DNA from: Janthinobacterium sp.
GTDB taxonomy: Bacteria; Pseudomonadota; Gammaproteobacteria; Burkholderiales; Burkholderiaceae_D
Assembly: GCA_003133225.1 (NCBI GenBank)
Contig: PKWL01000041.1
Coordinates: 186,151 to 250,150 of the forward strand
DNA length: 64,000 nt
Direction: 5' to 3'
Numbering within the stretch: position 1 is the stretch's first letter; each line of letters opens with the position of its first letter. The position numbers were made by a program, and so were the translations under genes. Below the pieces are notes generated by a model. The model was not told where the DNA came from. It saw only the letters and a list, made by a program, of their open reading frames with translations, and made no database searches. Below are positions 6,633 through 20,182 of the stretch, in pieces.

Positions 6633-7859
6633 ATGACGAACCCCCCTGTTAGCGCCAATAGTGCCAACCTTTTCAGTGCCATCGACATGGCCCCCCGCGA
6701 CCCTATCCTGGGCATCACGGAAGCATTTAATGCCGACCCGAATCCCGCCAAAATCAACTTGGGCGTAGGCGTCTATTATGACGACAACGGCAAAGTGCCG
6801 CTGCTCTCTTGCGTGCGCCAGGCTGAGGCGATTTTGATGGAGCAACTCGCGCCCCGTACCTACCTGCCCATCGACGGCTTGGCTGCTTACGACAAGGCCG
6901 TGCAAGAACTCGTATTTGGGGCCGACAGCGGCGTCATTCAAGAGCGCCGCGCGGTCACCGTGCAGGCCATCGGCGGCACCGGCGCCTTGAAGATCGGCGC
7001 CGACTTCCTGCGTCGCTTTGCGCCGGACGCGCAAGTATACATCAGCGACCCGAGCTGGGAAAATCATCGCGCGCTGTTCGAAAGCGCCGGTTTTGTCGTC
7101 AACAGTTACGCCTACTACAACGCCGCGACCCATGGCGTCAATTTCAGCGCCATGCTAGCCGACTTGAGCGCGATGCCACGCGGCTCCATCGTGCTGCTGC
7201 ACGCCTGCTGCCACAATCCGACCGGCGCCGACCTCAACTCGGAACAATGGGGCGAGGTCATCGCCGCCGTCGCCAAAGGCGGCCTGATCCCGTTCCTGGA
7301 CATGGCCTACCAAGGCTTTGCCGCTGGCATCACGGAAGACGGCGCCGTGGTGCGCCGTTTCGCCGCGGCCGGCGGCCCCTTGCTGGTCTCGAACTCGTTT
7401 TCGAAATCGTTCTCGCTGTATGGCGAGCGCGTGGGTGCGCTAAGCGTAGTGGCGTCGAGCGCCGACGAAGCGGCGCGCCTGTTGTCGCAGCTAAAGCGCG
7501 TCGTGCGCACCAACTACTCGAACCCGCCGGTGCATGGCGGCAAGGTGGTGGCCACCGCGCTGACGACACCGGCCTTGCGCCGCCTCTGGGAAGAAGAGCT
7601 GGCCGGCATGCGCGTGCGCATTCGCGAAATGCGCAATGTCTTGGTCGAGAAACTCAAACAGAAGGCGCCAGCCCATGATTTCGAATTCGTGCGCGAGCAG
7701 ATCGGCATGTTCTCCTACTCAGGTCTGACCAAGGCTCAAGTCGAGCGCCTGCGCTCTGAACACTCGATTTACGCGGTCGATACGGGCCGCATCTGCGTCG
7801 CCGCTTTAAATTCGCGCAACATCGATGTCGTGGTGGACGCGATCGCCAAAGTCATTTAG
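6633..7859 (+). CDS. Aromatic amino acid / aspartate aminotransferase
   Basis: INLGVGVYYDDNGKVPLL, HACCHNPTGADL, SNSFSKSFSLYGERVGAL (PLP Lys). Start at ATG 6633. Confidence 0.93.
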   Translation: MTNPPVSANSANLFSAIDMAPRDPILGITEAFNADPNPAKINLGVGVYYDDNGKVPLLSCVRQAEAILMEQLAPRTYLPIDGLAAYDKAVQELVFGADSGVIQERRAVTVQAIGGTGALKIGADFLRRFAPDAQVYISDPSWENHRALFESAGFVVNSYAYYNAATHGVNFSAMLADLSAMPRGSIVLLHACCHNPTGADLNSEQWGEVIAAVAKGGLIPFLDMAYQGFAAGITEDGAVVRRFAAAGGPLLVSNSFSKSFSLYGERVGALSVVASSADEAARLLSQLKRVVRTNYSNPPVHGGKVVATALTTPALRRLWEEELAGMRVRIREMRNVLVEKLKQKAPAHDFEFVREQIGMFSYSGLTKAQVERLRSEHSIYAVDTGRICVAALNSRNIDVVVDAIAKVI

Positions 7860-7871
7860 CGTTCCCGCCGC

Positions 7872-7901
7872 CTCCGGATCGATTGCAAGACGGATCCGGA
7901 G
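7872..7901. terminator. Hairpin downstream of the aminotransferase
   Basis: CTCCGGATC-gattgcaagacg-GATCCGGAG inverted repeat 13 bp after the stop codon; no T-run. Confidence 0.45.
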
Positions 7902-8335
7902 CGGGCGGCAGTTGCCTTCCCGGCGCAGCCCGCGCCGTGTCGCCTGGGAACGCGCCGCTCCTGCCTGAGCCTGCTCTTCACACGGCCTGGGGCTGCCTGT
8001 CTTCGCCATCGAATCATGCTATGGCGTATCACTTGACGCATTTCTTCCTTTGGCCGGCGCCCGATTCAGCCATTGGCCAGTTTTCTCACGCCACCTCTTT
8101 TAGCGGGCGGCGCGCTCTTGCGGGTGCCGCCACGCAAAACGTCAAAGGGCGCGCCCGCGCCGCAACACCCTCCGAGGCCACTCCCGATTTTGAAGTTGAG
8201 TCGGACGAAATTGGGGCCCTGTGGCCCCCGGTTGGGGCGCTTTGGCACTGCTGTGAGGCGTCCTAACGGTCATGTCTTGGCCATGCCGGGCCCAGCTTCA
8301 TTTGTTGAATTTGGAAGTACATGTTACTATCAACG

Positions 8336-8374
8336 GCTATCTTTCCGGAACCGTTGCTATCTTACCGGAACCGT
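8336..8374. repeat. Direct repeat, 2 x 19 bp with a 20-bp period
   Basis: GCTATCTTTCCGGAACCGT (8336-8354) and GCTATCTTACCGGAACCGT (8356-8374), 18/19 identical, upstream of the Ehr-like operon. Confidence 0.85.
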
Positions 8375-8483
8375 GTGTTGGGCAAAGCTGCCGACACGGG
8401 CCCAGCGAGCGACCGTTTGTCACAGGAAGTCCCGCCCCCAACGTCGCAGTCGGGCCCGGGCCTCCCATTAAGTTGAAAGAACC

Positions 8484-10481
8484 ATGACCGCACTTATCAC
8501 CGCCATACTCGTCCTGTTTCTGGGGGCTGGCGTTTGTTTGCTTCCCTTGCGTAACGCCACCCGTGCCGGTGTCGGCATTCTCTCTCAACTGATCGCTACG
8601 CTACTAGTTTGGGCCACGGTGTTGCCGATTCTGTTCGGCGGCCACGATATCGTTGGCGAATTGGCTTGGGCCTATCCCGTTGGAACCTTGCGCTTGCGCC
8701 TCGACGCTCTGGGCGCATTTTTTTTGGCCTGGTCGTTGCCGATGACGCTACTGGGCAGCATTTACGCTGTTGGCTACCTGCGCCCGTTCTTCCAAGGTAA
8801 ACGGAACCTAGGCGTGCACTACGCTTTGCTCAATCTGACCTCTTTGTCTTTCATCTTGGTGTATACGGGCGAGCACGCACTCGTTTTTTTGCTCGGGTGG
8901 GAAATCGCCGCGCTCGCAGCCTGGCTGCTCGTGATCTGGGATTACACCAACCGGAACGTGCGTTTTGCCGGGTTCAACTATCTGGTCTCCACTCACATCG
9001 GTTTGATTTTCCTCGTCGCCGCCTTCATGATCATGTATACACACTCGGGATCTTGGTTTTTGACGAGCTTTGGCGACTGGCTAAAGAGGGGGGCCAGTTC
9101 CGAGCGCAACGCCGTATTTCTCCTGTTGGTTGCAAGCTTTGGCTTGAAATCTGCCTTCTTCCCGTTTCATTCTTGGCTGCCGCGCGCCCATGCCGCGGCG
9201 CCGGCCCATGTCTCGGCTCTGATGTCGGGGGTGATCCACAAAGCAGGGCTGTATGCGCTGATTCGCTTCGTGCTGCTAATTGGCACGCCCGATGAGTGGA
9301 TGGGCTGGTTCCTGATCGTCTTTTCCGCGTGTTCGGCCTTGATCGGAGCCCTATATACGGTCGGCCAGCGCGATCTGAAGCGTCTGCTCGGCTATTCATC
9401 GACGGAAAATGTTGGTATTGCAGGGATCGGCTTTGGGGTAGGGTGCCTGGGCCTGAGCTGGGGTATTCCTTCCCTCGCTGCCCTCGGCTTTGCCGGCGGC
9501 CTGCTTCATGTGCTCAATCACGCATTTTTCAAGTGCCAGCTTTTTTACGCGGCCGGGGCGGTCTATCAAGTGGCCCATACCGTTGACATGGAACGTCTGG
9601 GTGGGCTTGCACGCTGGATGCCGTGGACCTCGGCCAGTTTCCTCATCGGCGGCGTCGCGATCTGCGCCTTGCCGCCTTTGAACGGGTTCGCCAGCGAGTT
9701 CGTGATCTATTCCGGCCTGTTTAGTGGCGCCTCGGCCGGGATCTGGGCCAAGCTGGCGCTGTGCGTGGCGGGCGCCGCGCTCGCGTTCGTGGGCGCGGTC
9801 TCGGCCTTGAGCATCACGCGTGCCTTCGGCGTCATTTTCCTCGGTGCGCCACGCGACCCCACGACCCCGCCCGCCACGGAAGTGAGTCGGTGGATGCTGG
9901 TGCCCATGGCCATCCACGCAGCCGGTGTGATCGTACTCGGGGTCGTGCCTGCCGTCGGCTTCATGCTGGTGCGGCGAGCCACTGAACTCGCGCTGGGACC
10001 ACTATCTGCATCCGCCGCGGCCGCCCTTGCTCCCATTAGCGATGCGCTAACACGCATCGGATTGATTTCGGGCACACTCGTCGCCGCGATTGCCCTCGTC
10101 TTGTGGCTGCGCTCAAAAGGGGCGTCCGCGCCAGCGCGCCAGTTGACTTGGATTTGCGGCTACGGCGCACCCACTTCGCGCATGCAGTACACGGGAGCGA
10201 GTTTTTCGATGGACTTCGGCGCCCACTTCCGCGGCATCATGGTTTTTCTGCGCCGCAAAAAATCCCCGGCCGGCTACTTTCCATCCGACAGTTACGTGAT
10301 CACCGCTTGCGTCGATGCCGTGGAGCGCCGCCTGTTCTCCGTCATCGACCGCGGCAACGCGTCGGCTGCCGACGTGTCCGCCAAGTTTCGGGAAGACGAT
10401 CCGCGCGTCGCTTTTGCGGCCGGCCTCGTTGCCGTCGTCGTGATCGTGGGGCTGGTGCTGTTGTGGGGAGGGCCGCGATGA
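8484..10481 (+). CDS. HyfB-like antiporter-type membrane subunit (NuoL family) of Ehr-like complex
   Basis: 665 aa polytopic; conserved TM charges LLGWEIAALAAW, FGLKSAFFPFHSWLPRAHAAAPAHVSALMSGVIHKAGLYALIRF. Confidence 0.9.
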   Translation: MTALITAILVLFLGAGVCLLPLRNATRAGVGILSQLIATLLVWATVLPILFGGHDIVGELAWAYPVGTLRLRLDALGAFFLAWSLPMTLLGSIYAVGYLRPFFQGKRNLGVHYALLNLTSLSFILVYTGEHALVFLLGWEIAALAAWLLVIWDYTNRNVRFAGFNYLVSTHIGLIFLVAAFMIMYTHSGSWFLTSFGDWLKRGASSERNAVFLLLVASFGLKSAFFPFHSWLPRAHAAAPAHVSALMSGVIHKAGLYALIRFVLLIGTPDEWMGWFLIVFSACSALIGALYTVGQRDLKRLLGYSSTENVGIAGIGFGVGCLGLSWGIPSLAALGFAGGLLHVLNHAFFKCQLFYAAGAVYQVAHTVDMERLGGLARWMPWTSASFLIGGVAICALPPLNGFASEFVIYSGLFSGASAGIWAKLALCVAGAALAFVGAVSALSITRAFGVIFLGAPRDPTTPPATEVSRWMLVPMAIHAAGVIVLGVVPAVGFMLVRRATELALGPLSASAAAALAPISDALTRIGLISGTLVAAIALVLWLRSKGASAPARQLTWICGYGAPTSRMQYTGASFSMDFGAHFRGIMVFLRRKKSPAGYFPSDSYVITACVDAVERRLFSVIDRGNASAADVSAKFREDDPRVAFAAGLVAVVVIVGLVLLWGGPR

Positions 10482-11401
10482 TGGCCTTGCTCGCGGCCAC
10501 GCACGTGCTGATCGCGCTCTCGATGCCTATCTTGCTAGTTGGTATCGTGAACCGGACCAAGGCATTGTGGGCCGGCCGCAAGGGGCCGCGTCTGCTGCAG
10601 ATGGGCTCGGATCTGCGCCGCTTGCTGGGAAAGCGCCCGGTCTACAGTGCCGTCGCCACGCCCTTGTTTAAGGCTGGCGCCTACGTGGTGCTCATGGCAT
10701 CCATCCTGGCCGCCATGATCGCCCCCATCCTGGGCAGCGTCTCGCTCGTTCAGTTCGACTACGATTTCATTTTGTTCGCCTACACTCTCGGGCTGGCGCG
10801 CATTTTCCTCATGCTCTCTGCCATGGACGTCGGCAGTTCCTTCGAGTCCATGGGCGCGGCCCGCGAAGCCTCGTTCTCAGCGTTCATCGAACCGGCCTTG
10901 TTCCTGTTCGTCGGCGCAGCGAGCGTGGCCACCGGTCATACGAGTTTCGCCGGCCTGATCGGCCACCTGCACCAAGCCGCATCGTTTCGCTGGATGGCCG
11001 TTCCAGCCGTCGTCGCTCTGTTCATCCTGTTGCAAACTGAGGCGGCGCGCGTGCCGGTGGACGACCCGCTAACGCACTTGGAGTTGACGATGATCCACGA
11101 GGTCATGATTCTTGACCATAGCGGACCCGAGCTCGCGGCGATGGAGTACGCGGCGGCGCTCAAGATGAGCATGTACGCAGGCTTGATCGCCGCGCTGCTC
11201 AATCCGTTCGATCCAATTGCAGAGCCCGGGCTGTGCATTCTTCTGTCCTTGGCCCTCATGCTCATAGTCGCCGTGGCGGTGGGCTGTGTCGAGTCCTTGA
11301 CGGCGCGCCTGCCCATGCGCTGGGTGCCCGGCTATCTGTTGCTGGCGTCGCTTGCAGCGGCCTTATGTATGGCTGCCGTGGGATGGGGAGCGCTAACCTG
11401 A
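10478..11401 (+). CDS. HyfC/NuoH-like membrane anchor subunit of Ehr-like complex
   Basis: NuoH-family signatures SFESMGAAREASFSAF, VDDPLTHLELTMIHEVMILDHSGPELA; ATGA overlap with previous gene. Confidence 0.9.
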   Translation: MMALLAATHVLIALSMPILLVGIVNRTKALWAGRKGPRLLQMGSDLRRLLGKRPVYSAVATPLFKAGAYVVLMASILAAMIAPILGSVSLVQFDYDFILFAYTLGLARIFLMLSAMDVGSSFESMGAAREASFSAFIEPALFLFVGAASVATGHTSFAGLIGHLHQAASFRWMAVPAVVALFILLQTEAARVPVDDPLTHLELTMIHEVMILDHSGPELAAMEYAAALKMSMYAGLIAALLNPFDPIAEPGLCILLSLALMLIVAVAVGCVESLTARLPMRWVPGYLLLASLAAALCMAAVGWGALT

Positions 11402-12006
11402 TGACGTTGCCATTGATCGGTTTTCTTCTCGCCGCCGTCATCCCTGTTTTCTTCGGGAAGATTCGCTCCGCGCCGGTGTGGCTGTGCCTGCAGGCGATAA
11501 TGCTCGGATGGAACGGATTCGCTCACCATGCCGACTTCTCGAGCCATGCGATCCTGGCGCTAGTCGAGGTCACCGTCGTGCGCGTTTGCCTGGCCCCGCT
11601 TCTGCTGCGCAGCACGATTCGCCGCCGCGCCGAGGTGAACTTGGACTTGATGCCGTCCAACCTCTTTGCCTGGATCGTGGCGACGGCGCTCATCGCATTG
11701 TCTTTCCAGTTCGGCGAGGCGGCATCGAGCCCGGACGCTTTCACGCTCGGCGTCGTCGGGGCAACGGTGATGATCGCCTTGCTCATCTTGTCGACGAACG
11801 ATTCGCCGCCGGCGCAACTGGTCGCGCTGCTCTTCATGGAAAATGCGCTGGCCTTGTTCGAGTCGCTGTTGCCCGAACCGTGGCCGCTGCCGGTTCATGC
11901 CGCCTTGGGCGCCGTCTACATTCTCACCGTTGGCGTCGGTAACTGGCTCCTCGCAACGCGTTCGGTGGCGGTGCCGGTCTTGGAAAAGAAAAAGGATGCC
12001 CCATGA
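11401..12006 (+). CDS. HyfE/NuoK-like membrane subunit of Ehr-like complex
   Basis: About 200 aa polytopic protein in the hyfE position; ATG 11401 overlaps the preceding TGA; NLFAWIVATALIALSF. Confidence 0.8.
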   Translation: MTLPLIGFLLAAVIPVFFGKIRSAPVWLCLQAIMLGWNGFAHHADFSSHAILALVEVTVVRVCLAPLLLRSTIRRRAEVNLDLMPSNLFAWIVATALIALSFQFGEAASSPDAFTLGVVGATVMIALLILSTNDSPPAQLVALLFMENALALFESLLPEPWPLPVHAALGAVYILTVGVGNWLLATRSVAVPVLEKKKDAP

Positions 12007-13445
12007 ATCGTGCCGATGCGATCGTGATGGCCGAGTTTGCCGCCGACGAGGCCGACTTGGTGCGCCACCGCTGGGTGGGCTCGGCGCTGGTTGCCGTAGC
12101 TTTGCTCACTTGGCTTACGTGCGTGACGATCTTTGTGCGCACCCCCCTTGCCGAACTGCCTCAGTATTTTGTGGAGCGCTACTTCGTACTTGACCCGACC
12201 TCCTTGTTGTTCGTGTTGCTCATTAATACCGTATTCCTCGGCATTAGCGTCTACATGTACTCGCGCGTGCGCACCTCGCGCGCGCTGGCGCAAAACATGC
12301 TCCCAAGGGCGGCCCTCTCGCTCGTGTTCATGGTGGCCATGAACCTGGGCGTGATGTCCAACCACCTGCTCGTGCTGTGGGCCCTGATCGAGGTCACGAC
12401 GCTGTGCGCGGTGCCCCTGGTGGCCCAAGGCAGTTCGAGTAACCCGCGCCGCGTCGCTTGGCACTACATGCTCTATTCGAGCATGTCGCTGGCGCTGACC
12501 TTCCTCGGCTTCATGTGCTTGACCCAGTCCGCCCACCTGCACGGTTTGGAGATCAACTTCGCCTTCGATCAATTGGCGTTGGCCCTGCAGCCGGCCGGCG
12601 ATGGATGGCAACGCCTTGGGCTCGCGCTCATGTTGTTCGGGCTCGGCAGCAAGCTGGGCCTCGCGCCTCTGTACGGTTGGTTGCCCGAGACCTACGAAGG
12701 CGCACCAACGAGCGCGAGCGCGCTGTTGGCGGCGGTCCAATTTAACGTCAGCGTCTTGGCCGTGTTCCGCATTCTTCAGGTGTTCCGCGGCAGCCACAGC
12801 AATTTCGTCATGTATGAATTGCTCATTATGGGATGCCTGTCGCTGACGGTGGCAGCCATTCAGGTCATGGCCTCCCACAACTATAAGCGGCTGATCGCCT
12901 ATGCCTGTGTTAGCTCGGCAGGGGTCATCGCCATCGGACTCTCGGTGGGCAAGGCGGCGGCCTATGGCGTCGTTCTGTATGTCGTTAGCAGTGCGTTTAT
13001 CAAGGCGTTGTTGTTTCTTACTGCCGGACGCTTGCGGGCGGTCTACGGAACCAACGATATTGGCGCTTTGAGCGGAGTGATCAAGGTGCTGCCGTTTTCA
13101 GGATTGTTGTTCACGGTGGGCATCTTTGCCCTGCTGGGGTTCCCCCCTTTCGGCAGTTTCCTGGCGGAGATGCTGATCTTGTCGGGCATCGTGCAATCGG
13201 GCAATCTGATCGTCTTCACGCTGATGTGCACGATGTTGACCGTCATTTTCGTCGCCGCCGGCCGTGCCATCTTTCCCATGCTGTGGGGGCCATCAAACAG
13301 GACCGGTTCGCCGATCAATGAACCGTTTGTGACCGCTTTGCCGAAGCTTGGATTCGTCGCCGCGCTGGTGCTGCTCGGCGTATACACGCCGCAACCCGTT
13401 AGCCAGTTGCTGTTGCTCGTGGCCAACTCTATTGGTGGAAAATGA
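12003..13445 (+). CDS. HyfF-like antiporter-type membrane subunit (NuoN/M family) of Ehr-like complex
   Basis: 480 aa polytopic; LWALIEVTTLCAVPLV, GSKLGLAPLYGWLPETYEGAPTSASALLAA, YKRLIAYACVSSAGVIAIG; ATGA overlap. Confidence 0.9.
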   Translation: MNRADAIVMAEFAADEADLVRHRWVGSALVAVALLTWLTCVTIFVRTPLAELPQYFVERYFVLDPTSLLFVLLINTVFLGISVYMYSRVRTSRALAQNMLPRAALSLVFMVAMNLGVMSNHLLVLWALIEVTTLCAVPLVAQGSSSNPRRVAWHYMLYSSMSLALTFLGFMCLTQSAHLHGLEINFAFDQLALALQPAGDGWQRLGLALMLFGLGSKLGLAPLYGWLPETYEGAPTSASALLAAVQFNVSVLAVFRILQVFRGSHSNFVMYELLIMGCLSLTVAAIQVMASHNYKRLIAYACVSSAGVIAIGLSVGKAAAYGVVLYVVSSAFIKALLFLTAGRLRAVYGTNDIGALSGVIKVLPFSGLLFTVGIFALLGFPPFGSFLAEMLILSGIVQSGNLIVFTLMCTMLTVIFVAAGRAIFPMLWGPSNRTGSPINEPFVTALPKLGFVAALVLLGVYTPQPVSQLLLLVANSIGGK

Positions 13446-14932
13446 TGCAAGCTAAGGAGCCGCTAGTCCTCCTGTCTGCCCCCGCGATTGCGCGCACGGG
13501 TTTGCCAGAATTGATCGGCCTGTGCGCTGATCGGCTCGATTCGGGCGCGCGCATGCTCACGCTGTTCGGCCGCGCCAGCGAGGGCGAAGAGGTCCTGGTG
13601 AGCGCGGTACTGGAAGAGGCGGGGGGGCGCCTGATAGTGATGCAAGCCGATGCCAAGCGCGGCGATCGCTTCGATTCGCTAACGCCCCTGCATCCGGCGC
13701 TGCACATGGTCGAGCGTGAGCTGTGGGAACAAACGACGCTCACCCCGGACGGACACCCTTGGCTAAAGCCGGTTCGCCATGAGGGCGCGCGCCAGCAGTG
13801 CATGAGCGACTACCCATTTTTCAAAGTGCGGGGAGCCGAAGTCCACGAGGTGGGGGTAGGGCCCATTCATGCCAGTGTGATAGAGCCCGGGCATTTTCGT
13901 TTCATGTGCCTAGGCGAGCAGGTTCACCACCTTGAGATACAGTTAGGCTATCAGCACCGGGGGGTCGAGCAGCTGTTATTGCGCCGCAACCCTCTCTTAC
14001 TGGCATCTAGCGTGGAAGCCATCGCGGGCGACTCCAGCGTTGCCTACGCATGGGCTTACTGCGCGGCGATGGAGGCATTGTCGGCGACCCAAGTGCGGCT
14101 CGAGGATGATCTTGTCCGCGGCGTCGCCTTGGAGCTCGAACGGGTGGCGATGCACCTCGGGACGCTAAACGGGATGGCCACTGACATCGCTTTTTTGCAA
14201 GGGGGCGCCACCTACGGGCGCCTGCGAACGGCCATCATCAACGCCTCCATGCGCTGTTGTGGCAGCCGCTTCGGGCGCGGCTGGCTGCGACCGGGCGGCG
14301 TGCGCTTTGGCTTGAGCGCGGAGCGGTGCCAGGACCTGCTCGACACCTTGGGCTCGTTTGCGCGGGATTTCCAACAGGTCAACGAACTGATGCTCTGCGC
14401 GCGTAGCGTGCAGGCCCGGCTTAAGGGCGTGGGCGTCGTGACTGCAGCGGTGGCGCGCGAGATCGGGATGGTGGGCCTTGCCGCGCGCGCCAGCGGCGTG
14501 GCGCTTGACACGCGCCTTAGCATGCCCGGCCGCGTGCATGGCGCTTTTCCGCTCGCGCTAGTCACGGAGGACGGTGGGGACTGCTGGGCGCGCCTACGGA
14601 TGCGCATCCGAGAGACCGATGAGTCGGTTCGTTGGCTGCTGCAAGTGATCGCCCATGCGGCGCTCGAGCGCAGCGACTTCGCGCCCGCCGAGCCCGCGTG
14701 CAAAGAGCTGCGCCCGAATATGCTGTGTGTCTCCGTGCGCGAAGGGGCAAGGGGAGAGATAGTCCAAGTGATCGAGACTGGCAGCGACGGGCGCCTGCGG
14801 CACTATAAGGTTCAGGATCCGTCCCTTCAAAACTGGTTTGGCGTGGCTCTTTCTGTGAGAGACAACGAGATCTCGGACTTCCCTATTTGCAACAAGAGCT
14901 TTGATCTTTCCTACTGTGGAAACGATCTCTAG
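13442..14932 (+). CDS. HyfG-like large subunit (NuoC-NuoD fusion) lacking the [NiFe] ligands
   Basis: GPIHASVIEPGHFRF, LGYQHRGVEQLL, RCCGSRFGRGWLRPGGVRFG; L1 position reads EAIAGDSSVAYA, L2 position reads DLSYCGNDL-stop. Confidence 0.9.
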   Translation: MMQAKEPLVLLSAPAIARTGLPELIGLCADRLDSGARMLTLFGRASEGEEVLVSAVLEEAGGRLIVMQADAKRGDRFDSLTPLHPALHMVERELWEQTTLTPDGHPWLKPVRHEGARQQCMSDYPFFKVRGAEVHEVGVGPIHASVIEPGHFRFMCLGEQVHHLEIQLGYQHRGVEQLLLRRNPLLLASSVEAIAGDSSVAYAWAYCAAMEALSATQVRLEDDLVRGVALELERVAMHLGTLNGMATDIAFLQGGATYGRLRTAIINASMRCCGSRFGRGWLRPGGVRFGLSAERCQDLLDTLGSFARDFQQVNELMLCARSVQARLKGVGVVTAAVAREIGMVGLAARASGVALDTRLSMPGRVHGAFPLALVTEDGGDCWARLRMRIRETDESVRWLLQVIAHAALERSDFAPAEPACKELRPNMLCVSVREGARGEIVQVIETGSDGRLRHYKVQDPSLQNWFGVALSVRDNEISDFPICNKSFDLSYCGNDL

Positions 14933-14940
14933 GACAAACG

Positions 14941-15690
14941 ATGTTTAGATCGATCGCGGTCAGGGTATCCCAAGGAACCCAGTATATCTTGGATCCCCGC
15001 AAGGCAAGCCCGCTGGGCTTTCGTGGCCGCCCGCTAATTGGCAGCGCCATGTGCGCAGCCGAGTGCGGCGCCTGCGTGGCGTCCTGTCCCACCGATGCCG
15101 TCTCTCTAGCTCCCCTCGAGATTGATTTGGGACGCTGCGTGCTGTGTGGCGATTGCGCGCCCGTGTGTCCGTCCGCGAAACTCTCGTTTTCGAATGATTT
15201 CAAGATGGCCGCCACCGATCGTTCCGCTCTGGTCGTGAGTGCTTTGCGAGCGTCACTCGATCCGGTGGCGGTCTCTGCGGCAATGCGAAAAAGGTTCGGC
15301 CATTCGCTCAAGCTGCGCGTGGTTTCTGCCGGCGGATGCAACGGCTGCGAGCTGGAGATCAACGCGCTGTCGAACGTCAATTTCGATATCGGACGCTACG
15401 GCATCGACATCGTGGCCTCGCCGCGGCACGCCGACGGCCTCGTTCTGTCGGGGCCGCTTACGCGCAATATGGCCGATGCTTTGCAGCTGTGCTGGGACGC
15501 GATTCCGGAGCCGAAGTTCGTGATCGCGGTGGGAGCGTGCGCCATCTCCGGCAGCCCGTTTGAAGGCTCGTCTGCGCTTGATCGTCGTTTTTTGGAGCGC
15601 TTCGCGCCGTCCCTGTATATTCCCGGGTGTCCTCCGCACCCTCTCACATTCCTATGCGGCGTCCTCGATTTCCTGGGAATCCCAAGCTAA
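14941..15690 (+). CDS. Fused 2x[4Fe-4S] ferredoxin + NuoB/HyfI-like small subunit
   Basis: CAAECGACVASCP and CVLCGDCAPVCP ferredoxin motifs, then GGCNGCELE, GACAISG, PGCPPHP. Confidence 0.92.
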   Translation: MFRSIAVRVSQGTQYILDPRKASPLGFRGRPLIGSAMCAAECGACVASCPTDAVSLAPLEIDLGRCVLCGDCAPVCPSAKLSFSNDFKMAATDRSALVVSALRASLDPVAVSAAMRKRFGHSLKLRVVSAGGCNGCELEINALSNVNFDIGRYGIDIVASPRHADGLVLSGPLTRNMADALQLCWDAIPEPKFVIAVGACAISGSPFEGSSALDRRFLERFAPSLYIPGCPPHPLTFLCGVLDFLGIPS

Positions 15691-15847
15691 GGTGACATCT
15701 GGCAAACTGAGGTGAACCAACCACGGGCAATGGCGCGGGAAATGCTTGGCTGCGCCTATCGGCGAACAGAGCCCCTTGCACGCGCCTTTGTGCGGGAAAA
15801 TTTCGCGCGAATGGATGACCCCGCTTTTTTGTGGGTAAAATGGGGGC

Positions 15848-16837
15848 ATGCAAAGACAGCGTAAAGACGGAAATCCCCTACGACTGCCCGCACGCTGCCA
15901 CTACAAACATGGCGCGTTTTGGTATGTCCATTCTGTTGGGCGGTGGGAAAGCCTGGGGAGCGACATCGCCAAGGCGTGTGAAAAGGCCGGACATTACAAC
16001 AAACACGTGCAAGCCAATGGCACTGTCGCATGGTGTATCGACGCGTATTTGTTGCATTTGGAGCAGCTCGTCAAGCTGGGAAAAAAAGCCGCCCGCACGC
16101 TGTCGGATTACCAAAAATACGCGCTGTCTTTGAAAGACTATTTTGGCAAGATGCGGCTAGATGAGGTCCAAGCGCACCATGTTAAAACCTATCTGGACAT
16201 CAACGACAAACTGGGGCGCGGCGTGAGCGCGAACCGCGAAAAAGCCCTGCTGTCTGGCGCATTTTCTTGGATCATCGGATCGCAGCAAGGCGTGATCGTG
16301 TTGAACCCGTGCGCGAAGGCCGGCCGCAACAAAGAAATGGCGCGCGCACGCTACGTGTCGGACGAAGAATATCATGCTGTTCAGTCGCTTGCGACGCCGA
16401 ACGTCCAGCTAGCCATGGAGCTGATGTATAGAACCCTACAGAGTCCCTCTGACGTGCTGCGCTACCGGCGCGATGCGATCCGGATGTGCGATGGCAAACG
16501 GATTTTCCGTTTCCGTCAGGACAAGACGAAAAGAACGCTAGACATCGAAATCGACGCTCATTTCCAAGTCATGATCGAGCATGGCGCCGGCGCCGGCGAT
16601 TACCTGCTGGTGTCACGCCTTAGCAAGCCGTACACGCCCAATGGGATGGCATCGATGCTGCATCGCTACCAAAAAATAGCTGGCATTGCATCATTTGGCT
16701 TGCAAGACTTGAAAGCCAAAGGCGCGACGGACATGTATCAATCCGGCGTGGCGCTGGACATTATTTGTGAGCTGTTGGGGCATAAATCCGTGTCGACGAC
16801 GGAAGTCTACGTCAAGCAGCACTTGACGTCGTCTTAG
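15848..16837 (+). CDS. Tyrosine-type site-specific recombinase / phage integrase
   Basis: C-terminal QDLKAKGATDMYQSGVALDIICELLGHKSVSTTEVYVK (box II with GH and Tyr), N-terminal SAM-like core-binding region. Confidence 0.85.
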   Translation: MQRQRKDGNPLRLPARCHYKHGAFWYVHSVGRWESLGSDIAKACEKAGHYNKHVQANGTVAWCIDAYLLHLEQLVKLGKKAARTLSDYQKYALSLKDYFGKMRLDEVQAHHVKTYLDINDKLGRGVSANREKALLSGAFSWIIGSQQGVIVLNPCAKAGRNKEMARARYVSDEEYHAVQSLATPNVQLAMELMYRTLQSPSDVLRYRRDAIRMCDGKRIFRFRQDKTKRTLDIEIDAHFQVMIEHGAGAGDYLLVSRLSKPYTPNGMASMLHRYQKIAGIASFGLQDLKAKGATDMYQSGVALDIICELLGHKSVSTTEVYVKQHLTSS

Positions 16838-17130
16838 ACGAAAAACGCCCTGTGCGAGTCGGCTTAGGTCCGCTCCCGCTGCTGCATCACGAGCCAAGCT
16901 GTAATGGCATGATGTCAAGTATCGCAAGTGTTGCATGCTTCGCCGGCGGTGACGGTTGGGGCAGCCATTGGGAATGAGTGAAAATCATTGTCACGGCAAT
17001 TTAGCGGCCCTGGGCTCCTAAGAAAAACATTTGTGCCCCGGAAAATTCTGATATACTTCGTTTCGTTGGAGGAAGCAGTTAGACAGTCAAGCGCAAGCCG
17101 ACATCTTAACCCATTGATTCTAAAAACTTT

Positions 17131-17206
17131 TCCCTGATAGCTCAGTTGGTAGAGCGACGGACTGTTAATCCGCAGGTCCCAGGTTCGAGTCCTGGTCGGG
17201 GAGCCA
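17131..17206 (+). tRNA. tRNA-Asn (GTT)
   Basis: TCCCTGATAGCTCAGTTGGTAGAGCGACGGACTGTTAATCCGCAGGTCCCAGGTTCGAGTCCTGGTCGGGGAGCCA; acceptor, D, anticodon and T stems pair; CCA encoded. Confidence 0.97.
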
Positions 17207-18846: not shown

Positions 18847-20182
18847 TTTTGTGTAAATGGTCATTTGGCAGGACACTGCCACCATAGAGGAAAAAATGAC
18901 CTACGTGAAACGTACCAAACGGGCCAAGCCCGATCCTGAGCTGGTCAAGCTGGCTGACAGCCTTCTTGCCAACTACAAGAAACCTGAAGACCTGATTGGC
19001 GAAAATGGCTTGCTCAAGCAGCTCACCAAGATGCTGGTTGAGCGCGCCTTGGAGGTCGAGATGACCGACCACCTCGGCCACGGCAAGAGTGGCGAGGTCA
19101 TCAACGACACAGCCAACACCCGCAACGGGCACAGCGCAAAAACGCTCAAAGGCGACTTCGGCGCACTCCCTCTCGACATTCCGCGCGACCGCCAGAGTTC
19201 GTTTGAACCTCAAATCGTTGGCAAGCATCAGACCCGCTGGACCGGCTTCGACGACAAAATCATTTCGCTGTATGCCCGCGGCTTGACGGTCAGGGAGATC
19301 CAGAGCCATCTGGAGGAGATATACGGCGCCGAGGTGTCACCAAGCCTCATCTCGGCCGTCACCGACGCTGTGAGCGATGATGTGAAGGTTTGGCAAGCCC
19401 GGCCACTCGATGCGCTCTATCCGATTCTGTATCTCGACTGTATTCACGTCAAAGTGCGCGACACCGGTGCCGTGCGCAACAAGGCCGTCTACCTGGCCAT
19501 CGGCGTGAACATGGAAGGCCACAAGGAAGTGCTGGGCCTGTGGATCGCTCAGACCGAAGGCGCCAAGTTCTGGCTGCAGGTGGTCACCGAACTAAAAAAT
19601 CGCGGCGTACAAGACATCTTCATCGCCTGCGTTGACGGCCTGAAAGGCTTCCCCGATGCGATCGAAGCGGTCTATCCGAAAGCGGCCGTCCAGCTGTGCA
19701 TTGTCCACATGGTGCGCAACAGCATGAACTTCGTTCCGTGGAAAGTGCAGAAGGAAGTGGCCGCCGATCTGAAGTGCGTCTATAGCGCGGCGACCGTCGA
19801 TGAGGCCGAACTCATGCTCACGCAATTCGAGGTCAAATGGGACAAGGACTACCAGTCAATCGGCCTATCCTGGCGGCGCAACTGGGCGCGCATCACGCCG
19901 TTCTTCGACTATCCACCGGAAATCCGAAAAGTCATTTACACCACGAATGCCATCGAATCGATTAATATGAGCCTGCGAAAAATCATCAAAACTCGCAGTT
20001 CATTTCCAACCGATGAGGCCGTCAGTAAGCTGTTTTACCTGGCGCTCAATAACATCAGCAAGAAATGGACGATGCCGCTAAGGGATTGGAAAGGGGCGCT
20101 CAACCGCTTCACTATCCAGTTCGAAGAACGGATGTCGCTCGCTTAAACGAAACGCCATTTACACAAAATCCCGCACACCCCC
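18833..20182 (+). mobile_element. IS256-family insertion sequence, apparently complete (1350 bp)
   Basis: Terminal inverted repeats GAGGGTGTATTTAATTTTGTGTAAATGG / GGGGGTGTGCGGGATTTTGTGTAAATGG, intact transposase, 8-bp TSD. Confidence 0.93.
18896..20146 (+). CDS. IS256-family (mutator-type) transposase
   Basis: YLDCIHVKVRD, CVDGLKGFPDAIEAVYP, HMVRNS, YTTNAIESINMSLRK; ORF also open from 18857. Confidence 0.95.
   Translation: MTYVKRTKRAKPDPELVKLADSLLANYKKPEDLIGENGLLKQLTKMLVERALEVEMTDHLGHGKSGEVINDTANTRNGHSAKTLKGDFGALPLDIPRDRQSSFEPQIVGKHQTRWTGFDDKIISLYARGLTVREIQSHLEEIYGAEVSPSLISAVTDAVSDDVKVWQARPLDALYPILYLDCIHVKVRDTGAVRNKAVYLAIGVNMEGHKEVLGLWIAQTEGAKFWLQVVTELKNRGVQDIFIACVDGLKGFPDAIEAVYPKAAVQLCIVHMVRNSMNFVPWKVQKEVAADLKCVYSAATVDEAELMLTQFEVKWDKDYQSIGLSWRRNWARITPFFDYPPEIRKVIYTTNAIESINMSLRKIIKTRSSFPTDEAVSKLFYLALNNISKKWTMPLRDWKGALNRFTIQFEERMSLA

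Follow-up and report, generated by a model that had tools for sequence, protein, structure and literature searches.

A predicted ferredoxin-fused energy-converting hydrogenase-related (Ehr) complex without Ni-Fe ligands on a mobile island of Janthinobacterium sp.

A six-gene operon in Janthinobacterium sp. (contig PKWL01000041.1; positions 8484-15690 of the analyzed stretch of 64,000 nucleotides, called the window in the following) almost certainly encodes, judged from its sequence, an energy-converting hydrogenase-related (Ehr) complex, and it is a new member of this already known, functionally orphan family, belonging to a branch with a fused ferredoxin. A passage of PMC4378227 credits the family to Coppi (2005) and Marreiros (2013). 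Its function is described as unknown in PMC6349859, PMC10284858 and PMC12342949, the latter from 2025, which is in line with the first-pass annotation of this DNA, where the operon had been assigned to Ehr and the family had been said to lack an established physiological reaction. The operon combines NuoB-like, NuoH-like and antiporter-like membrane subunits with a large subunit that is homologous to those of group 4 hydrogenases and has lost the Ni-Fe cysteines. In comparison to known Ehr complexes the same Hyf/complex I-like subunits are present and the Ni-Fe ligands are likewise missing, whereas the fusion of ferredoxin and NuoB distinguishes the complex of the window.

All six open reading frames (ORFs) are open and located on the + strand in the order HyfB, C, E, F, G and ferredoxin-NuoB fusion (I), with overlaps of 1-4 nt at the B/C, C/E, E/F and F/G junctions and a gap of 8 nt between G and I. 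The HyfB-like antiporter-type subunit (8484-10481, 665 aa; PF00361 Proton_antipo_M, 4e-53) is followed by a HyfC/NuoH-like membrane anchor (10478-11401, 307 aa; PF00146 NADHdh, 2e-21), which contains the Ehr-specific loop VDDPLTHLELTMIHE with the conserved charges D196, H200 and H207 according to the alignment. The HyfE-like membrane subunit (11401-12006, 201 aa) gave no match in a Pfam search and was assigned by its position in the operon and by its close relatives (53-59% identity to the five closest), and the second antiporter-type subunit is HyfF-like (12003-13445, 480 aa; PF00361, 2e-38). The HyfG-like large subunit, a fusion of NuoC and NuoD (30-kDa/49-kDa; 13442-14932, 496 aa; PF00346 Complex1_49kDa, 4e-31), aligns with E. 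coli HycE (7z0s_E, 2.5e-34) and Pyrococcus MbhL, and its AlphaFold model (pLDDT 89.7) has HycE (7z0s_E) as top PDB match with a TM score of 0.86. The last gene (14941-15690, 249 aa; PF01058 Oxidored_q6, 6e-25, and Fer4) encodes a two-cluster ferredoxin fused to a NuoB/HycG-like subunit, and the model of this protein (pLDDT 93.8) matches HycG (7z0s_G) and MbhJ (6cfw_J). The subunits proposed in the first-pass annotation were recovered in all six cases, and the mislabeling as hydrogenase-4 that it expected from automated pipelines is plausible: every NCBIfam match of the operon proteins stays below its curated cut-off, and the top one is 'hydrogenase 4 subunit B' for the HyfB-like protein (454 bits versus a cut-off of 667). 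A scan for promoter and terminator sequences 5' of the operon found none.

All four cysteines of the [NiFe] site are missing from the large subunit, as had been noted at the outset. At the L1 position (14018-14038, + strand) the alignment reads AIAGDSS instead of the RVCGICG of hydrogenases (CGIC to AGDS), and at the L2 position (14900-14929, + strand) FDLSYCGNDL is directly followed by the stop codon where hydrogenases have DPCYSCTDR, the cysteine in this stretch being out of register, so that neither RxCGxC nor DPCxxC is found. The protein ends at LSYCGNDL, close to the cleavage point and length of a protease-processed hydrogenase, and has no C-terminal extension; a hydrogenase protease gene is not present in the operon. 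The ligand set is also absent in all 80 relatives that were aligned, which are the best 80 of at least 581 confirmed candidates matching the window, so that counts among them are not family frequencies (the end of one row, L031, is unreadable). The second L1 cysteine is always replaced by Ser, Thr or another residue, both L2 cysteines are gone, and the first L1 cysteine is retained only in Gastranaerophilales and four betaproteobacteria. Because the same replacement pattern occurs in the 80 relatives, which span more than 15 phyla, a sequencing error, which had been considered as a possible cause, seems very unlikely. Instead of the metal ligands, the relatives share a near-invariant pocket with the motifs IEPGHF (13880-13897 in the window, + strand), xGD[S/T] and NKSFxLSYxGxDL; in the HyfG alignment IEPGHF, GD and NKSF[N/D]LSYxGxD are kept in essentially all 80. 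The conserved acid/base residues of this pocket are H143, E148, D197, S198, K485, S490 and Y491 in the window protein. E148 aligns with E21 of MbhL and H143 with H38 of Nqo4, and the position of Nqo4 Y87 is occupied by Gly196 (roles of the equivalent residues from PMC7684303).

A tree of the large subunit is consistent with this assignment. It comprises 97 rows with few outgroup rows and no named published or curated Ehr reference, and as the tree program flagged long branches, the way in which the outgroups branch relative to one another is not reliable. Ehr forms one clade (support 100/100) that includes neither the NiFe group 4 rows nor the NuoD rows sampled, and the large subunit of the window thus lies outside the sampled H2-evolving group 4 enzymes, in which a position would have spoken against the early assignment. 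The clade splits into a window type (80 rows, 100/97) and a proteobacterial type (8 rows, 100/99). The window row is found in a betaproteobacterial subclade of five rows (100/100) on a long stem, surrounded mostly by lineages of anaerobes, among them Bacteroidota, Melainabacteria, Spirochaetota and Verrucomicrobiota. With E. coli hydrogenase-3/-4 (formate hydrogenlyase, FHL; HycE/HyfG) the complex shares the fold, the NuoC-NuoD fusion, the CxxC of the small subunit and the pump subunits, whereas Ni-Fe ligands, HyfA/D/J/R and the protease are lacking and the clade is a separate one.

The small subunit of the window retains all 12 cluster cysteines (C38, 42, 45, 49, 66, 69, 72, 76, 133, 136, 200 and 230), the ligands for three [4Fe-4S] clusters, and its NuoB part has the hydrogenase-type CxxC in a full-length CNGCE motif, in contrast to complex I with its two neighboring cysteines (CC). 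For the clusters we use the names middle and distal, which we take to correspond to N6b and N6a in the topology of complex I. A fused ferredoxin domain occurs in nearly all window-type relatives, and the middle-cluster set C49, C66, C69 and C72 is kept in 74 of 76 window-type small subunits; the distal and proximal sets have been lost in sub-branches. The loss is most pronounced in Bacteroidales, where C133, C200 and C230 are replaced by Asp, Asp and Asn (D/D/N) in 30 of 30 loci and the distal-cluster ligands are gone as well, with the HyfG pocket residues unaltered in every row that could be read (27-28 of 28). Among Bacteroidales, 35 genomes gave a match, each with a single copy and no intact paralogue at the search threshold; the operons of the 30 loci (L117-L146) often have two hyfB genes. 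Some Verrucomicrobiota and one planctomycete have a different replacement, with a Trp at C230. To explain the loss of proximal ligands, the tree requires 5 changes, of which well-supported branches force three or more, and at least three independent lineages are affected. The ferredoxin cysteines have disappeared from two Omnitrophota, and the proteobacterial type contains only the proximal cluster and no ferredoxin domain. No Fe-S cluster is common to all Ehr complexes examined; the pocket and the pump residues are. The literature on Ehr, without Coppi (2005) and Marreiros (2013), yielded nothing relevant on cluster loss.

In the window, the pump residues E140, K222, K253 and E405 are present in the HyfB-like subunit and E130, K217 and E389 in the HyfF-like subunit, where N248 occupies the Lys position of transmembrane helix 8 (TM8). 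Apart from K253, which is conserved in most relatives, and this Asn, the residues are conserved in at least 90% of the relatives in the alignment. Four loci (L067, L069, L080 and L092) have two successive hyfB-like genes in the Ehr operon, which amounts to a third antiporter-type subunit.

How such a complex might work can only be proposed, and our preferred interpretation, put forward tentatively, is an ion pump linked to ferredoxin, with an acceptor other than protons and probably also other than a quinone. Reduced ferredoxin would deliver electrons into the fused ferredoxin domain and further to the proximal cluster; in the metal-free pocket a small acceptor would be reduced or a change of charge would take place, and this event could be relayed via the HyfC loop to the pumps, which may move H+ or another cation. 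The three [4Fe-4S] ligand sets that lead to the pocket in the window complex support this proposal, and protons are excluded as acceptor since the Ni-Fe ligands are missing. The neighboring genes fit as well: no dehydrogenase recurs in the 80 loci, where the six-gene block stands by itself, and this points to a general soluble carrier as donor. A search for the ferredoxin source by POR_N was given up as the domain matched everywhere, also in long frames of possibly transketolase-like proteins. Several points weigh against the ferredoxin-linked pump. Donor and acceptor are both inferred only, a quinone is possible in the host, which has UbiA-family prenyltransferases, and in relatives the distal cluster, the proximal cluster or the entire ferredoxin domain has disappeared with the pocket retained, so that the family as such does not require electrons to be led to the pocket.

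It is this loss on which a different view can be built, namely that Ehr is not an oxidoreductase at the pocket at all and that pocket and pumps together are a conserved machinery for transport, with an optional electron wire. The D/D/N of Bacteroidales would then possibly bind a cation, and in other lineages a helix-turn-helix/EIIA protein encoded in the operon may control the genes according to the phosphotransferase status; we regard this view as doubtful. In a related form, which seems rather unlikely to us, coupling would be redox-independent or redox-gated, the pocket acting as a conformational or proton element of what is mainly a cation/proton transporter and the Fe-S clusters as optional sensors. 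The replaced proximal ligands in at least three independent lineages, the D/D/N of Bacteroidales next to an unchanged pocket, the missing universal cluster, the additional HyfB in many Bacteroidales and a gene for a helix-turn-helix/EIIA protein that is often found within the operon are in favor of such a device, whereas the complete set of 12 cysteines in the window and the middle-cluster ligands in nearly all window-type relatives are difficult to reconcile with it.

A ferredoxin:quinone reductase resembling chloroplast NDH-1 would make use of the shared NuoD/NuoB fold and of H143, which aligns with the quinone-site His, and the prenyltransferases of the host would be compatible with it; nevertheless we consider it rather improbable as well. 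With respiratory complex I (NuoB/D/H/L/M/N) the fold and the pump residues are shared, but the window complex lacks an NADH module (no NuoE/F/G beside the operon), has Gly196 instead of the quinone-site Tyr and CxxC instead of CC, and forms its own clade. Using MqnA and MenD as markers in 19 Ehr genomes, we found MqnA in two and MenD above the cut-off in one, and both menaquinone-route markers are missing in 16, among which only two, including the genome of the window, are betaproteobacteria expected to use ubiquinone. In the nine Gastranaerophilales/Melainabacteria genomes MqnA and above-cut-off MenD are absent throughout. As these markers are missing in most Ehr genomes tested, a quinone is unlikely as acceptor for the window-type branch but conceivable for the host of the window. 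UbiA (PF01040) was dropped as a marker, being too general with matches in all 26 genomes.

An association with formate dehydrogenase, with formate as electron source, has been proposed from gene content for Margulisbacteria and Saganbacteria (PMC6349859), but it is very unlikely here, given that formate dehydrogenase, NuoE/F or another oxidoreductase is neither recurrent in the 80 loci nor located beside the operon of the window or a second Ehr operon of the genome. A sulfane or polysulfide reductase akin to archaeal MBS is even harder to defend: the MBS/Mbx sulfane reductase of Pyrococcus is likewise a Ni-free, ferredoxin-fed relative of complex I (for the window complex the feeding is inferred), but two Ni-Fe cysteines are still present in it, H38 and E21 are missing, and its Cys motif is shortened, which leaves a three-Cys proximal cluster with an open Fe site (PMC7684303), whereas the window complex has H143, E148 and the full-length CNGCE motif. 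A dead hydrogenase relic under relaxed selection, as one paper regards the Geobacter Ehr (PMC13194489), is hardly credible in view of the pocket and pump motifs that are near-invariant over many phyla, the intact operon and its lateral acquisition.

Ehr is widespread and without an established reaction, and the comparison within the family narrows the question, as natural variants short of at least one cluster indicate what the complex cannot do without. Should the pocket function in the absence of electrons, complexes of this kind would offer a natural setting for testing how redox chemistry and pumping are linked in complex I, a connection that is disputed. With its full set of cluster ligands, the copy of the window lends itself well to experiments in parallel with the cluster-poor complexes of Bacteroidales.

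The operon was acquired horizontally on a mobile island. A comparison with three genomes of the same genus revealed a 9.3 kb (9.27 kb) insert at 7859-17126 between an aminotransferase gene and tRNA-Asn (gtt; 17131-17206, + strand); in these genomes the insert is missing and about 130 bp separate the aminotransferase gene from the tRNA. A phage-type tyrosine integrase (15848-16837, + strand; PF00589, 1e-12) adjoins the operon. The GC content of the island is not unusual, and flanking att-site repeats were looked for and not found. A window-type Ehr is present in none of 36 genomes of the genus; the seeming matches in the genus are NuoD, apart from one fragment of the type described next.

The genome contains a second Ehr operon on another contig (C79; 13081-19977 of locus L005, running into L114), which is divergent and of the proteobacterial type. 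It is located between glnE-like and GAPDH genes and encodes a large subunit with RVSGDST and NKSFNLSYSG, only 31% identical to that of the window, and a NuoB without ferredoxin domain. The first-pass annotation had found no hyp maturation, protease, formate dehydrogenase or NADH-module genes in the operon, which stands; the genome-wide search for hyp that it suggested, however, detected hypF/D/E-like genes on contig C4. They adjoin a HoxFUYH-like hydrogenase operon and can therefore be accounted for without Ehr. HypD was not found in 12 of 25 genomes of relatives, including the isolates Extensimonas, Ancylomarina and Geothrix paludis, absences in metagenome-assembled genomes (MAGs) being weaker evidence. 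Two different Ehr complexes also occur together in other organisms. A Rhodoferax MAG (L030, 3741-19110) has window-type and proteobacterial-type operons converging a few kb apart on the same contig, and in Verrucomicrobiota (L070, L208-L212) the window-type operon is located near a third Ehr type (IEPGHFLFS, SGDSS, NLSYSGTDR), which has only the middle and proximal clusters. This repeated pairing hints at joint working.

Neighboring genes were compared by gene calling and clustering over the 80 loci, which show the B-C-E-F-G-I block; the calls are crude in high-GC loci, and two clusters of antisense artefact ORFs were disregarded. The sole clear recurrent neighbor on the sense strand encodes a protein with HTH_17 and PTS_EIIA_2 domains (for example L037, 3213-3899, among loci L032-L105). 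It was found in 24 loci (hyfB was identified in 22 of these), compared to 54 loci that have hyfB and more than 1.2 kb of upstream sequence. In most cases the gene stands directly 5' of hyfB and frequently overlaps with it; otherwise it is located between hyfB and hyfC. Most of the encoded proteins retain the PH motif of the site at which EIIA is phosphorylated. The operon of the window does not contain it, and a literature search on a link between EIIA and Ehr found nothing relevant. Complex I genes are present within the same window, with a canonical NuoD at about 52345, and a Mutator-family (IS256-like) transposase is encoded 3' of the island at 18857-20146, in a stretch of lower GC content (16.5-22 kb).

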